Origin: Nitrosopumilus ureiphilus
GTDB taxonomy: Archaea > Thermoproteota > Nitrososphaeria > Nitrososphaerales > Nitrosopumilaceae
Direction of reading: 5' to 3'
DNA: 64,000 nt
Assembly (NCBI RefSeq): GCF_013407185.1
Contig: NZ_CP026995.1
Coordinates: 62,001-126,000, forward strand
A program made the translations under genes and the position numbers. This document shows, piece by piece, positions 16,956 through 55,336 of this stretch. Numbering within the stretch: the stretch's first letter is position 1; every line of letters starts with the position of its first letter. The notes under the pieces were generated by a model. The model saw only the letters and a list, made by a program, of their open reading frames with translations. It was not told where the DNA came from and made no database searches.

Positions 16956-18830
16956 TTAATTTTTAGACTTTTCATATAATTCATTAACTTTTTTGATAAT
17001 ATCTAAATTTTCATAATCAACTAAACTCAAATTCGGTATTACACAATTGTGAATTAGTCTTCCTCCTGTTGAAACAAAAAGATGATTTTCTGTATCTATT
17101 GAATATACATCCTGATCTTTTTCCTCATGGACAGTTTTAGTTGTTTTGATCATGTAAAGATTTTCATTTATCATATGCCATAGATTTTTGTTATGTTGTC
17201 TATGTATCTGAGATTTTGTAAAGCCAGATATTGAAGCAAGCTTGTTGTATTGAACTTCCTTCTTTGATACTAATGTGTACAACATTTTGCCACTGATAGT
17301 TCGTCCTTCTATAACGCTTGGTGAATGAGTTCCACTAGTCAATGTCATTACATAACCCATAGACAATAGCAACAAATCCAATCCAGCTACTAGAATCTTA
17401 GATACAGTTCCAGCCTGTACCAAACCTAATGAAGGCATAAATGAACCATCTCCTCTAAAATATCCACTTACAAATTGTTCTTTCATCTCTCTTGATACAA
17501 AAAAGATAAACTCTGGAAGACATTTGGAATTAGACTCTCTACCACATCCTAATGTATCAGCTACAAACAGTGAAAATGGAGTTGACTTTACTCCAACATG
17601 TGTTACGTTTTTTTGTGTGGTTATGTAATAGTTTAATTCTAGATGTTCTAAAATTTTACACACATCAGAGATGTATTTTATCTCATTTTTGTTAAACGAA
17701 AATCTTGTGGAATATCCTTTACCATAGTTACTTACAGAGCCTTCGGATACATAATAGCCAAGCAATCTGCAAAATTCGGGAGTAATTGAGATTGATTCTG
17801 GCATATTATGCCTAAATCTCCAATTGGTTGATTCAAAATTAAAAGACTGCTTAGTATCCATATTTGGAAGATCTGCAACAAAGGGAATGTTATCATCTAC
17901 CTTGATGTCTTTTGCGAGTTTTTCAGATAGAGAATCAGATACAATCATGACATGTTCATCAGTAGTTGTAATGGAGCGATTTGTTCTTGTAGTGAGTGAT
18001 ATCATTTTTCCTGAGAACTGTCTTTTCCATTTTGTTATGACCTTGTCAAAGATTGATTTTTTCTTAATTGGATCATATGAAAGCACATCGTTTTGATAAC
18101 CCTTTTCCACATATTCGCTAATTGTGATCGGCCTCATTCCAATTTGAGTTTTAATGAAGAGAATTTCATTACCATCAAGACAATGCCCTCCAATAACTCC
18201 TGGATACATTTTTGGTCTGTTGTCTAAATTTTTATGTATTTCATCTGCAAATTTCCACATCTCATCAAAATCAACACCTTCCTTATCACAAATCATTTTT
18301 GTTATTTGAGCATAATTGATTAGCCATCCATAATATGTTGTATCAACTAATATTTTTGCAAGTTCTGCAGTTTTAGTTGTAGACATCCAATCTATTTTTT
18401 TAAATCTTTTTTCTAAATCGGATTTTATTTCTGGATCTATTTGTTTGTCATCAGATGAAATAAATTTTGTATATTTTTTGATATCTTCTAAAAATCTTCT
18501 ATGTACACCACGAACTGGTGAAAACAAAACTGGTACTGTTGATCTTTTTTGAATTTTTTCTGTTGTCCCAGGTTTTACTGTGGAATGAATCAAAACTCCC
18601 TTCAAACCTTTAAAATCTCGAATCCAATTTATTGTGATATCATCAAATTCTTTTAGTTCTCCTGGAAGGCAAACATGAAGATATTCTGGATTTTCAATTA
18701 CCATATTTTTGGAATAATTTTTACATTTTGATTCATTAAGATCAATTCCTACACAATCAAAATTTCTTTCAACAAGTAAATTAAACAAGGTTTCTCCAAC
18801 TTCCCCCATACCTAATACGATATCTGTCAT
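16956..18830 (-). CDS. UDP-glucose/GDP-mannose dehydrogenase-family protein interrupted by an intein
   Basis: The 624-residue precursor contains a 379-residue intein (residues 217-595). The exteins join to a 245-residue protein. Extein features: Rossmann motif LGMGEVGETL (residues 6-15), STVKPGTT, SPVRGVHRRF, KTAELAKILVDT and the rejoined catalytic motif GVIGGHC-VIPN. These are the NAD-binding and central domains of nucleotide-sugar dehydrogenases. The C-terminal nucleotide-sugar-binding domain (usually another 120-150 residues) is missing, so the protein is a minimal member whose substrate is unclear. Neighbours are tRNA-Gln and a DUF354 glycosyl-enzyme-like gene. Confidence 0.88.
   Translation of the reverse strand: MTDIVLGMGEVGETLFNLLVERNFDCVGIDLNESKCKNYSKNMVIENPEYLHVCLPGELKEFDDITINWIRDFKGLKGVLIHSTVKPGTTEKIQKRSTVPVLFSPVRGVHRRFLEDIKKYTKFISSDDKQIDPEIKSDLEKRFKKIDWMSTTKTAELAKILVDTTYYGWLINYAQITKMICDKEGVDFDEMWKFADEIHKNLDNRPKMYPGVIGGHCLDGNEILFIKTQIGMRPITISEYVEKGYQNDVLSYDPIKKKSIFDKVITKWKRQFSGKMISLTTRTNRSITTTDEHVMIVSDSLSEKLAKDIKVDDNIPFVADLPNMDTKQSFNFESTNWRFRHNMPESISITPEFCRLLGYYVSEGSVSNYGKGYSTRFSFNKNEIKYISDVCKILEHLELNYYITTQKNVTHVGVKSTPFSLFVADTLGCGRESNSKCLPEFIFFVSREMKEQFVSGYFRGDGSFMPSLGLVQAGTVSKILVAGLDLLLLSMGYVMTLTSGTHSPSVIEGRTISGKMLYTLVSKKEVQYNKLASISGFTKSQIHRQHNKNLWHMINENLYMIKTTKTVHEEKDQDVYSIDTENHLFVSTGGRLIHNCVIPNLSLVDYENLDIIKKVNELYEKSKN
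17046..18182 (-). mobile_element. Intein with LAGLIDADG homing endonuclease, inserted at the catalytic Cys
   Basis: In-frame protein-splicing element of 379 residues. It begins with Cys1 in CLDGNEILFIKT (block A), has a block-B-like TTTDEHVMI with the conserved H, and ends with DVYSIDTENHLFV, GGRLIHN (blocks F and G), the last Asn preceded by His. The next extein residue is Cys+1. Between the splicing blocks are two dodecapeptide-like endonuclease motifs, LLGYYVSEGSV (about 356-366) and FVSGYFRGDGSF (about 453-464). A region resembling a helix-turn-helix, SGFTKSQIHRQHN, follows. All residues needed for splicing appear intact. Confidence 0.95.
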
Positions 18831-18897
18831 TATACCTAATTTCTGAAAAACTACCTATATTATATTCATGTTACAAATTCTTCTTTTTAAAATAAGG

Positions 18898-18970
18898 TAG
18901 CCCGGCCCAGACTCGAACTGGGGTCAAAGGCTTCAAAGGCCTCTATGCTTGACCGCTACACTACCGGGCT
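18898..18970 (-). tRNA. tRNA-Gln (anticodon TTG)
   Basis: A 73-nt cloverleaf on the minus strand with no encoded CCA. The acceptor stem AGCCCGG pairs with CCGGGCT. The anticodon stem GAGGC/GCCTT encloses loop CTTTGAA, giving anticodon TTG. The T arm is CCCAG-TTCGAGT-CTGGG and the discriminator is A. It is charged by the GluRS plus GatDE route encoded at 25.9-29.1 kb, since archaea generally lack GlnRS. Confidence 0.95.
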
Positions 18971-19037: not shown

Positions 19038-20066
19038 CTATTCGTTAATAATTTTCATTAGTTTTTGTATAGGATTTTCCATTTTTCCAACAATCTTTTT
19101 TGCTCTTTTTTGATTTAGATTATTTGATGAATTAAAAACTTTCTTGATATGATTAGAAATTTTCTTTGGATTTGTTTCTCTTTTCACTAAATGTTTTCTT
19201 ACCAAGAAATCATCAATAATATTTGGAACACCATGATATGATATAGTTGGAATTCCCATTAATGCTGATTCAGCCGTCATGGTACCTCCAGATCCTATAA
19301 AAATATCTGTATTGTTTAACAAATGTTTTCCATCATATGTCATTTTTAAAATTTTAGCTTTATTACCAATTATTTTTTCAATATTTTGAACTTGTTTTGT
19401 ATATCTTCCTAAAATAATTATATTTTCTTGATAGTGTTCAATTATAATTTTTTTGATGATTGGAATTATTTTAGATGATTTTGGTACATATGATGCTTGT
19501 TCTTCTTCTATTCTAATCAAAATATTTTTTTTATTATTTTTCTCAAATGGTAATTTTGCTTCTTGATTAATTTTTCTGTTTAAAGTAACAAATGCATCTA
19601 TGGCTTTGTATGATATAATGTTCTTTTTTTCAATTCCATATTTAGAAAATTCATTTTTTGGGATTACATTAGGAATCAATAATTTTTGAATTAATGGCAA
19701 TGTTAATCGCATAACTGCATCAGCATGTGGTGAATCGCAAAATGCTACATGTTTTATTCCTAAACCAAACGAAATTCTTGCTGCTTCAGGGGAACAATAA
19801 CTAATTGCTATATCTGGTGAAAATCTCTCAATTTGTTTTGAAAGTTTCTCCATTCTGCTAATACTGGCTTTAAGCTTAGTTTTCTTATCCCCACCACCAT
19901 GTTTTCCAACAAAAACAAGGTCAAAATTACGCATTTTTGCCAATTTTGAAACTTCATTGTACTCTCTTGAAGTACACAAAATATCATGCTTTTTTCCTAA
20001 TTTTTCAATTATTTGTTCAGAAAACAATAATTGTTTTGGAGTAAGAATATCTATCCATATTTTCAA
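19038..20066 (-). CDS. DUF354 family protein (UDP-GlcNAc 2-epimerase/GT-B-like fold)
   Basis: Archaeal DUF354 protein of 342 residues, related in fold to UDP-GlcNAc 2-epimerase and GT-B glycosyltransferases. Typical segments are MKIWIDILTPKQLLF at the start, DIAISYCSPEAARISFGLG, FCDSPHADAVMRLTLPL, and the C-terminal nucleotide-site-like FIGSGGTMTAESALMGIPTISY. The biochemical role of the family is not established; sugar-nucleotide chemistry is the best guess. It lies between tRNA-Gln and the divergent Rossmann-fold gene. Confidence 0.85.
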   Translation of the reverse strand: MKIWIDILTPKQLLFSEQIIEKLGKKHDILCTSREYNEVSKLAKMRNFDLVFVGKHGGGDKKTKLKASISRMEKLSKQIERFSPDIAISYCSPEAARISFGLGIKHVAFCDSPHADAVMRLTLPLIQKLLIPNVIPKNEFSKYGIEKKNIISYKAIDAFVTLNRKINQEAKLPFEKNNKKNILIRIEEEQASYVPKSSKIIPIIKKIIIEHYQENIIILGRYTKQVQNIEKIIGNKAKILKMTYDGKHLLNNTDIFIGSGGTMTAESALMGIPTISYHGVPNIIDDFLVRKHLVKRETNPKKISNHIKKVFNSSNNLNQKRAKKIVGKMENPIQKLMKIINE

Positions 20067-21873: not shown

Positions 21874-23904
21874 ATGGCTAAAATAATTGGAATCGATTTA
21901 GGAACAAGTAACTCTGCTGCTGCAGTAGTAATGGGCGGAAAACCAACCATTATTCCAGCTGCTGAAGGTTCCACTGTTGGAGGTAAAGCATTTCCATCAG
22001 TTGTGGCATTTTCTAAAGATGGTGAACTCTTAGTTGGTGAACCTGCAAGAAGGCAAGCAGTAACAAATCCTGATAGTACTATTGTTGCTGCCAAAAGGAA
22101 AATGGGAACAGATCATACTTTTAAAATTTTAGACAAAGAATACAAACCTCAACAAATTTCATCGTTTATTCTCCAAAAAATCAAAAAAGATGCTGAGGCA
22201 TTTATTGGTGAACCAGTGGAGAAAGCAGTTATCACAGTCCCTGCATACTTTGATGATAATCAACGTCAAGCAACTAAAGATGCTGGAACAATCGCTGGAC
22301 TTGATGTAGTCAGAATTATCAATGAGCCGACTGCGGCATCTCTGGCATTTGGATTAGATAAAGCAAAAGAAGACATGAAAATTCTCGTCTTTGATTTTGG
22401 TGGCGGTACATTAGATGTCACAATTATGGAAATGGGCGGAGGTGTCTTTGAAGTAATGAGTACATCAGGGGATACTCAGTTAGGTGGAACAGATATGGAT
22501 AAAGTTCTGATTGATTATATTGTTGATGAATTCAAAAAGAAAGAAGGTGTTGATCTTTCACAAGATACAACTGCAATGACGAGAATAAGGGAAGCTTCTG
22601 AAAAAGCAAAAATTGAGTTATCAACTGTTATGGAAACCGATATTAATTTACCATTTATTGCGCATGATCCTTCAGCAGGTGCAAAAAATCTTGAATTAAG
22701 ATTAACTAGAGCTAAATTAGATGAGTTAATTGGACCAATCGTTGAACGATGTAGATCCTCCATATTGAAAGCACTTGAAGATGCAAAACTTTCCAACTCT
22801 GATATAAATAAAATTGTCATGGTGGGTGGACCAACAAGAATTCCATTAGTTAAAAAATTTGTAAGTGAAATTATCGGTAAAGAAACTGAATCAGGTGTTG
22901 ATCCAATGGAAGCTGTAGCAATGGGAGCAGCAATTCAGGCAGGAATTATTGCCGGAGATGTTACTAGTGATATAGTCTTACTTGATGTTACTCCGCTAAC
23001 CTTAGGAATTGAAACTTTGGGTGGTGTAAGAGAACCATTAATTGAAAGAAATACAACAATCCCAACTTCTAAGAGTAAAGTTTTCACTACTGCAGCTGAT
23101 AATCAAACTGCTGTAACAATTCATGTTGTTCAAGGTGAACGTCCAATGGCAACTGACAATGTTTCATTAGGAAGCTTTAATCTAACTGATTTACCTCCTG
23201 CTCCAAGAGGAATTCCTCAAATTGAAGTAAAATTTGATATTGACGCAAATGGAATTATCAATGTAACTGCAAAGGATCTTGGAACACAGAAAGAAGCAAA
23301 AATTACCATTGAATCTACATCAAAGTTATCTAAAGAAGAAATTGAAAAATTAAAAGAAGATGCAGAAAAATTCTCTGATGAAGATAAAAAGAAAAAAGAA
23401 AAAATTGATCTTAAAAATGAGGCAGAAAGTTACATTTACACTACAGAAAAATTGGTTAATCATGATCTAAAGGATAAAATCTCTCAAGAACAGGGAATTA
23501 AAATTACTGATGCTGTAAAGGAAGTCAAAGAAGTTTTAGATCGAGAACCAAATGAATTAAAGCCTAAACTTGAAGCATTACAATCTTTAGTTAATGAAGT
23601 AACTACAGAACTTTACAAAAATGCTTCACCTCCTCCAGGTGCTGAAGGACAACAAAGTGCAGGTGCTGAAGGACAACAAAGTGCAGGTGCTGAAGGACAA
23701 CAAAGTGCAGGTGCTGAAGGACAACAAAGTGCAGGTGCTGAAGGACAACAAAGTGCAGGTGCTGAAGGACAACAAAGTGCAGGTGCTGAAGGACAACAAA
23801 GTGCAGGTGCTGAAGGACAACAAAGTGCAGGTGCTGAAGGACAACAAAGTACTGAAAATCAAACAAATGAATCATCTACAACTGATGAAACAAAAACTAA
23901 CTAA
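21874..23904 (+). CDS. dnaK: Hsp70 chaperone DnaK with repetitive C-terminal tail
   Basis: ATP-dependent protein-folding chaperone, 676 residues. Nucleotide-binding domain motifs: [41 protein letters not shown] and [10 protein letters not shown]. The linker and substrate-binding domain begin at [16 protein letters not shown]. The helical lid ends near residue 585. The remaining tail holds nine tandem 8-residue units GAEGQQSA followed by a Ser/Thr/Asn-rich end. The repeat tail is not needed for the chaperone fold and is unusually long and perfect. GrpE precedes and DnaJ follows in the same direction. Confidence 0.97.
23638..23853 (+). repeat. Nine perfect 24-bp tandem repeats in the dnaK tail
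   Basis: The unit GGTGCTGAAGGACAACAAAG plus TGCA encodes Gly-Ala-Glu-Gly-Gln-Gln-Ser-Ala and is repeated nine times head to tail. Eight copies are identical at the nucleotide level, and the ninth differs only in its last codon (ACT). Identical third-codon positions indicate very recent expansion by slippage or unequal recombination rather than old selection on protein sequence. Confidence 0.98.
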
Positions 23905-53953: not shown

Positions 53954-55336
53954 ATGGAAAACAGTGACTCAAGATTAAATGGTTTAGAACATATTCAAGA
54001 ATTGCTTTCTAGTAAAAATTTGAGGGTTTGTGTTGTTGGTGTAGGACGAATTGGATTGCCTACCGCTCTATCTTTTGCAAAATCAGGATTGCCTACTATA
54101 GGAGTTGACATAAATGCTGATTTGGTAACTAGAATTAATTCAAATGATTATCCTTTAAAAGATGAACCAGGTTATGATGTCATATTTAATCAAGTAGTAA
54201 CAAACAAAAAATTTCATGCATCAACCAAAATAGAAGATGTTGTTCCAAATTCTGAAGTTATACTATTGTCCTTACCAACCCCTATGGATAAAAACAATAT
54301 ACCTGATTATTCTGCATTAAAATCTGTAGGAGCAAAACTTGGGGAATTACTAGAACCTGGTTCATTAGTAGTTGTAGAAAGTACAATTGAACCTGGATTT
54401 GTTGAAAATGAACTAGTCAAAATCATTGAAGATGGCAATAAACATTTAGTTGCTGGAAAGAATTTTTCAATAGGTGTGTGTCCAGAAACTGCAAATCCTG
54501 GAGAAATAATGCTTGATTTTACTCATCTTCCTAGATTAGTAGGAGCGATAGATGAAAAAACCACTAAAATAATTATGGAGATTTACGAATATGTTTTTCC
54601 AGTAGAACTTATTCCAATGCCTGACTGTAAAACTGCAAATGCAGTAAAACTAACTACTAATGTATTTAGAGATCTTAACATTGCATTTGTAAATCAACTT
54701 GCATTACTATTTGAAAAACTAGGAATTGATATATCCGTTGTTCTTGATGCTGCTAAAAGAAAATATAATTTTCAAGTTCATTATCCTGGACCTGGAGTTG
54801 GAGGTCCATGTTTACCAGTTAATTCATACCAAATGCTAAATTCTGCAAAACAATTTGATAGTAACATGTTAAGCCTTGTTAAAACCGGAAGAGAAGTAAA
54901 TGAAAGTATGCCAGATCATGTAATTGACTTGATAATTGATGGATTAAAAGATGCGAAAAAAGAAATTTCCAGTTCCACCATTTTATTATTAGGAATTTCA
55001 TACAAACCTGAAGTTAAAGATATCCAACTAACACCTGCAGAAAAAATTGTTGAAAAACTAAAAGAGCATGGCGCAAAAATCAAAATCTATGATCCCTTTT
55101 TTAAATCAGTAAATGTGTTTGATATCCAAACAGAAAATAATATTGAGCAAGCATTGACAAATGTTGATTCTATTGTTCTTGTTACTGCACACAAAGAATT
55201 TTACGATTTAAAACCATCGTATATAGCATCAAAAATACAAATGCCTGTAATCATTGATACTAAAAGAATCTTTGACACAGATGATGCAAAAAAATCAAAA
55301 TTAATCTTTAGATCTCTTGGTACTGGTAAATTCTAG
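53954..55336 (+). CDS. Nucleotide-sugar dehydrogenase (UDP-Glc/UDP-ManNAc DH family)
   Basis: Full-length, 460 residues, oxidising a UDP-sugar to its uronic acid. NAD site VVGVGRIGLPTALSFAKSG (about 28-46), STIEPGF, CPETANPGEIML, KLTTNVFRD and the catalytic Cys in GVGGPCLPVN are present. So is the C-terminal sugar-nucleotide domain with LLGISYKPEVKDIQLTPA. CPE(T/R)xxPG and GGPCLP are typical of the WecC-like branch. It is intact, unlike the intein-bearing relative at 16956-18830. Confidence 0.93.
   Translation: MENSDSRLNGLEHIQELLSSKNLRVCVVGVGRIGLPTALSFAKSGLPTIGVDINADLVTRINSNDYPLKDEPGYDVIFNQVVTNKKFHASTKIEDVVPNSEVILLSLPTPMDKNNIPDYSALKSVGAKLGELLEPGSLVVVESTIEPGFVENELVKIIEDGNKHLVAGKNFSIGVCPETANPGEIMLDFTHLPRLVGAIDEKTTKIIMEIYEYVFPVELIPMPDCKTANAVKLTTNVFRDLNIAFVNQLALLFEKLGIDISVVLDAAKRKYNFQVHYPGPGVGGPCLPVNSYQMLNSAKQFDSNMLSLVKTGREVNESMPDHVIDLIIDGLKDAKKEISSSTILLLGISYKPEVKDIQLTPAEKIVEKLKEHGAKIKIYDPFFKSVNVFDIQTENNIEQALTNVDSIVLVTAHKEFYDLKPSYIASKIQMPVIIDTKRIFDTDDAKKSKLIFRSLGTGKF

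Follow-up and report, generated by a model that had tools for sequence, protein, structure and literature searches.

What is the 379-residue insert that separates GGH from CVIPN in a dehydrogenase-like protein of Nitrosopumilus ureiphilus, and how did it come to lie there? The gene lies in a stretch of 64,000 nucleotides (the window), in which a first-pass annotation had seen an intein inserted at the catalytic cysteine of a protein of the sugar-nucleotide dehydrogenase family. Judged from the sequence, the insert is very probably a mobile class 1 intein that would splice out of its precursor and spread by LAGLIDADG homing, and its host a compact protein with a dehydrogenase fold.

The interrupted gene and its relatives

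The minus-strand reading frame is open over all its 624 codons and comprises N-extein, intein and C-extein of a single precursor (Table 1). The translated insert starts with CLDGNEIL and ends with GGRLIHN, and its excision in silico joins 216 to 29 residues, giving a host protein of 245 aa with the junction ...GVIGGH/CVIPN...; the first-pass annotation had coordinates, length and motifs exactly right.

Table 1. Features of the precursor gene and its upstream neighbours (positions in the window)
Feature	Position	Strand	Evidence
Precursor ORF, 624 aa (N-extein + intein + C-extein)	16956..18830	-	
N-extein, 216 aa, Rossmann-type N-terminus (GMGEVG) to ...IGGH	18183..18830	-	alignment with intein-free orthologues
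Intein, 379 aa, Cys1 to His378-Asn379	17046..18182	-	translation, profiles, motifs
Intein block A, CLDGNEIL, Cys1 nucleophile	18159..18182	-	C1 invariant, 7/7 inteins
Intein block B, TTTDEH (TxxH)	17952..17969	-	identical, 7/7 inteins
LAGLIDADG homing endonuclease region, limits approximate	17148..17813	-	PF14528/PF14527 matches; PI-PkoII match 127-278
Block C, LAGLIDADG motif 1, FCRLLGYYVSEGSV, with acidic residue Glu147	17733..17774	-	Glu in 7/7
Block E, LAGLIDADG motif 2, FVSGYFRGDGSF, with acidic residue Asp245	17439..17474	-	Asp in 7/7
Intein blocks F and G, QDVYSIDTENHLFVSTGGRLIHN	17046..17114	-	His378-Asn379 invariant
+1 Cys codon TGT: nucleophile of the C-extein, at the same time the invariant Cys of the host's GGHC	17043..17045	-	
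C-extein, 29 aa and stop	16956..17045	-	orthologue alignment
tRNA-Gln (TTG), upstream of host gene, context only	18896..18970	-	
DUF354 protein, conserved host-gene neighbour	19038..20066	-	PF04007 4.6e-48

Used as a query, the spliced host finds a match in 138 of 300 related genomes. Within the genus most matches are open frames of 245-262 aa that lack the insert and align over their full length, mostly at 73-87% identity, and about 75 such orthologues span the junction and align end to end with the 245-aa spliced product. A profile search of the archaeal family found the host gene in 153 of 250 genomes and the intein in 7, always inserted at the identical position between GGH and the following Cys. 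The six further carriers are G303, which has the same sequence as JACRND010000123.1 of a Nitrosarchaeum sp. MAG (L032/L082), and five genomes of another genus of the family (G136, G149, G162, G351 and G354); in one scan of genome contigs L032 was the single relative. Since most genomes of the genus hold intein-free orthologues and six inteins lie at the same site elsewhere, the insert is not a chance feature. Two host subfamilies can be told apart, A with the genus of the window, G303 and further members, and B, the genus to which the five remaining carriers belong.

Why this cysteine? Among 28 ranked Cys, Ser and Thr positions of the host it has the best conserved surroundings, and at the DNA level codon positions 1 and 2 of the motif are almost invariant over 67 sites, with variable wobble positions. 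Inteins and homing endonucleases favour conserved sites (PMC2814812), and intein insertion near active sites is a general rule (PMC3359363); the insertion site fits both.

Is the insert equipped to splice and to home? Cys1, the TTDEH of block B, His378-Asn379 and Cys+1, which together define a class 1 intein, are conserved in all seven copies, as are the acidic residues of the two LAGLIDADG-type motifs, LLGYYV[SA]EG (Glu147) and GY[FL]RxDG (Asp245). Profile models point the same way: Intein_splicing (PF14890) matches intein residues 16-379 (E=1e-11, 45.3 bits vs a cut-off of 35.8), LAGLIDADG_3 (PF14528) is above its cut-off at 7.7e-9 and intein_Nterm (TIGR01445) scores 32 against 24.5, whereas intein_Cterm (TIGR01443) gives a weak match in the full ORF, below its cut-off (11.5 vs 15.6). 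The intact splicing blocks and the two LAGLIDADG motifs of the first-pass annotation are thus borne out, and a plain folded domain at this position in orthologues, named there as a refutation, was not seen. The solved structures nearest to the intein are the PI-PkoII intein endonuclease and then other Hint or intein chains; an AlphaFold model of the intein built from 5 sequences (pLDDT 37) gives no structural support. In pairwise comparisons pN/pS of the endonuclease region lies between 0.11 and 0.32, and therefore the splicing and endonuclease parts are not decaying; the splicing and endonuclease residues are all maintained under purifying selection. The intein looks as one in the active phase of homing would be expected to look, its activity being predicted from these features.

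Identity and gene context of the host

What kind of protein is interrupted? The host resembles nucleotide-sugar dehydrogenases only distantly: it reaches 48 bits with TIGR03026 (cut-off 189.8), 20-21 bits with PF00984 (cut-off 25.4) and 16-17 bits with PF03721 (cut-off 27), all below cut-off. It has no C-terminal UDP-binding domain (PF03720), as it ends 29 residues past the splice point, at the place where that domain would start, and aligned orthologues are likewise short. The AlphaFold model of an intein-free orthologue (L006, pLDDT 90.6) has the fold of the first two domains of nucleotide-sugar dehydrogenases; its top match in the PDB is the UDP-ManNAc dehydrogenase 4r16 (TMq 0.81), and hydroxyisobutyrate dehydrogenases match nearly as well. 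The Cys of GGHC and the Lys of AELAK, which occupy the positions of the catalytic Cys and Lys, are invariant in the alignment, and in a profile alignment to 4r16 Thr, Lys and Cys are all retained; other residues stand at the positions of the catalytic Glu and Asn, with Val or Thr in place of the Glu of PER and Asp or Thr in place of the Asn after the Lys. The host is therefore best described as a compact dehydrogenase-fold relative of nucleotide-sugar dehydrogenases. The cysteine that had been called catalytic does align with the catalytic Cys, of which it is the positional equivalent; the word stands for positional homology, because the UDP-binding domain and some of the catalytic positions are missing from the host.

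In some species stops or frameshifts disrupt the host gene, as in L036 (G017), L038 (G051) and L108/L115 (G336), and the gene therefore seems dispensable.

The gene context suggests a role in sugar metabolism. The A-type host gene adjoins a DUF354 gene in 29 of 29 loci of the same subfamily, and two B-type genes lie beside genes for a nucleotidyltransferase, a sugar isomerase, a UDP-glucose dehydrogenase, a DegT aminotransferase and an epimerase. This lends indirect support to the surface-sugar enzyme proposed at first, but the canonical UDP-sugar dehydrogenase of the window is another gene (53954-55336), which encodes 460 aa with all three Pfam domains and the motif GVGGPCLPVN and carries no intein. 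That gene sits in a glycan-type cluster together with epimerase, glycosyltransferase-like and asparagine-synthase-like genes. Elsewhere in the window (23600-23870) a run of GAEGQQSA repeats in the C-terminus of DnaK gives rise to long open frames in the other frames.

Compact UDP-glucose-dehydrogenase-like genes (about 230-370 aa) that end shortly after GGHCVIPN are also common in viral contigs. Such relatives were found in 57 of them (L145-L201) by a scan that used the motif, so that its invariance in this set is partly built in, and none of the 57 has an intein. One of these, the 6-kb "viral" contig L145 (IMGVR_UViG_3300006414_000164), combines a B-type host-like gene with sugar-phosphate isomerase-like, cupin-like and T4-type gp41-like helicase genes, and either results from chimeric assembly or represents an archaeal virus that carries sugar genes.

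Proposed splicing and homing, and the alternatives

How would such an element act and persist? The precursor would be translated as a single chain, and its Cys1, block B TxxH and His378-Asn379, together with Cys+1 of the host, would bring about N-S acyl shift, transesterification and Asn cyclisation. As the conserved residues suggest, this would ligate GGH to CVIPN and free the 245-aa host protein. Before splicing the precursor is presumably inactive, because its chain is broken beside the invariant Cys. The endonuclease would cut alleles that lack the intein, at the conserved stretch of DNA that codes for P-G-x-I-G-G-H-C-V-I-P-N, and in the repair that follows the intein would be copied into the cut allele, a homing cycle to which distribution and divergence of the intein both point.

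It takes seven changes to place the seven insertions on a host tree of 68 sequences, a number that stays the same when supported branches only are counted, and each insertion is an isolated tip beside intein-free relatives; the L032 host protein, for example, has 96% identity with one that lacks the intein. The window and L032 come from different genera and allow a comparison at synonymous sites on the same contigs. For the intein pS is 0.31 (95% interval 0.25-0.37), against 0.57 for the extein, 0.58 for the neighbouring DUF354 gene and 0.60 for a neighbouring gene of 380 aa, or 0.58 (0.54-0.63) when extein and both neighbours are pooled. As the intein has diverged about half as much as extein and neighbours, it moved between the lineages after their split, and a recent transfer between genera is indicated. 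Between the subfamilies, exteins of A-B pairs are 45-49% identical and inteins 65-73%, and the ratio of intein to host tree distance is 0.12-0.21 for A-B pairs as compared to 0.35-1.04 within B, with the A-B host distance possibly inflated by functional divergence and the long-branch row L042. Since synonymous sites are near saturation in A-B pairs, for exteins and inteins alike, transfer between A and B is argued from amino acid identity and tree distances and is less firmly indicated than that between window and L032. No relative turned up when a viral collection was scanned with the intein alignment, and among phage records there was no close copy of the intein, only distant LAGLIDADG or intein matches at 24-31% identity.

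Could the same pattern arise by descent? The intein might splice but carry a dead or nearly dead endonuclease, its patchiness being the outcome of old vertical inheritance with many losses. The sporadic distribution would agree with this, two copies have an altered residue just before the second motif's catalytic Asp (RCDG in L033 and RRDG in L035), and precise deletion of an intein is possible in principle. Vertical descent does not, however, yield an intein with about half the synonymous divergence of its extein and neighbours, and a dead endonuclease is at odds with purifying selection on its region and with motif acids in seven of seven copies, so that we regard this course of events as improbable. 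A non-splicing Hint-domain insert, which would make the 624-aa chain the mature protein, is hardly credible: the profile and motif results are neutral or against it, the splicing residues are conserved in all seven copies, the host's best conserved motif would be left interrupted and most relatives have no insert.

Alternatively, splicing could be conditional, the +1 residue being the host's own conserved Cys and a redox- or metal-controlled switch keeping the protein inactive. The intein does adjoin the invariant Cys, and condition-dependent inteins have been published (for example PMC6195587 and PMC5790916). Such a switch is nevertheless highly improbable here, since intein-free orthologues dominate and regulation is therefore not needed by the host family; proximity to an active site is usual for inteins (PMC3359363) and accounted for by homing to conserved sites (PMC2814812), and an additional conserved regulatory feature was not found. 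Nearly as doubtful is a more far-reaching proposal, that one intein family crossed between host subfamilies of 45-49% identity by way of the near-invariant PGxIGGHCVIPN DNA and parasitises compact dehydrogenase-like genes across genera, with splicing that may report the redox state of the Cys. The reading that we favour remains that of a splicing intein mobile by homing.

Known inteins and the place of this one

Inteins in this group of archaea or in related enzymes are not without precedent. The udp allele in UDP-glucose 6-dehydrogenase occurs in Halobacteria, Methanocaldococcus jannaschii and others (PMC4071816), and PolB1 of Nitrososphaera gargensis contains two inteins (PMC4104785). The remark in the first-pass annotation that such inteins are little described is accordingly too broad in view of these reports; on the host family and site the literature searched contained nothing, nor did it describe an intein in any nucleotide sugar dehydrogenase from these archaea. 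As with the udp allele (PMC4071816), the host of the present intein is archaeal and belongs to that fold superfamily, and the intein is sporadic and appears to move horizontally. The two are set apart by the host, which is UDP-glucose 6-dehydrogenase proper for udp and here a compact relative without UDP-binding domain, not a full-length UDP-glucose dehydrogenase; the insertion site of the M. jannaschii udp intein was not found in the literature searched. Among the best 60 matches in haloarchaeal plasmids there was no intein-bearing full-length UDP-glucose dehydrogenase. A 789-aa frame over UDP-glucose dehydrogenase (G648, L142), considered as an intein-bearing homologue, turned out to be merely a GC-rich open frame.

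Among solved structures PI-PkoII, the intein endonuclease of Thermococcus kodakarensis DNA polymerase (PDB 2cw7), comes closest to the endonuclease region (127-278); it is distant (E 1.6e-10) and comes from another host protein. The top NCBIfam match is the model of the Tes (tetraether lipid synthase) intein, NF045703, which covers intein residues 122-379 (E 4e-21) but lies far under the model cut-off and belongs to a different host enzyme. The genome of the window has at least two further inteins, both outside the window. A mini-intein at the Walker A motif of an SNF2-family helicase (GLGK/C...HN/TVQT; G000:C1:947609-948106, L202) likewise sits in a catalytic motif but is much shorter, has no evident endonuclease domain and has Thr at +1. 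The intein of the ribonucleotide reductase RIR1 (NP/C...HN/CGEQ; G000:C1:2044438-2045418, L203) shares LAGLIDADG-type motifs and a +1 Cys in a catalytic-type host motif, a residue that we take to be the finger-loop Cys of the reductase; it differs in host gene and lineage and was missed by a protein search of the genome with the window intein. Given these two, there is nothing unusual in an intein that sits at a catalytic motif, or even at a Cys of catalytic type.

What follows for the biology of these archaea? The intein allele is real, new and well supported, and the evidence that it was transferred recently is good; the intein catalogue gains a host family and an insertion site by it, and ideas on how inteins work stay as they were. 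The allele offers a predicted homing endonuclease, probably an active one, from archaea in which few inteins are described. It provides a clear in silico case of recent intergeneric intein transfer in ammonia-oxidising archaea, in which both occupied and empty alleles occur and divergence can be controlled for on the same contig, and intein alleles of this kind are a natural readout of gene flow among these organisms.
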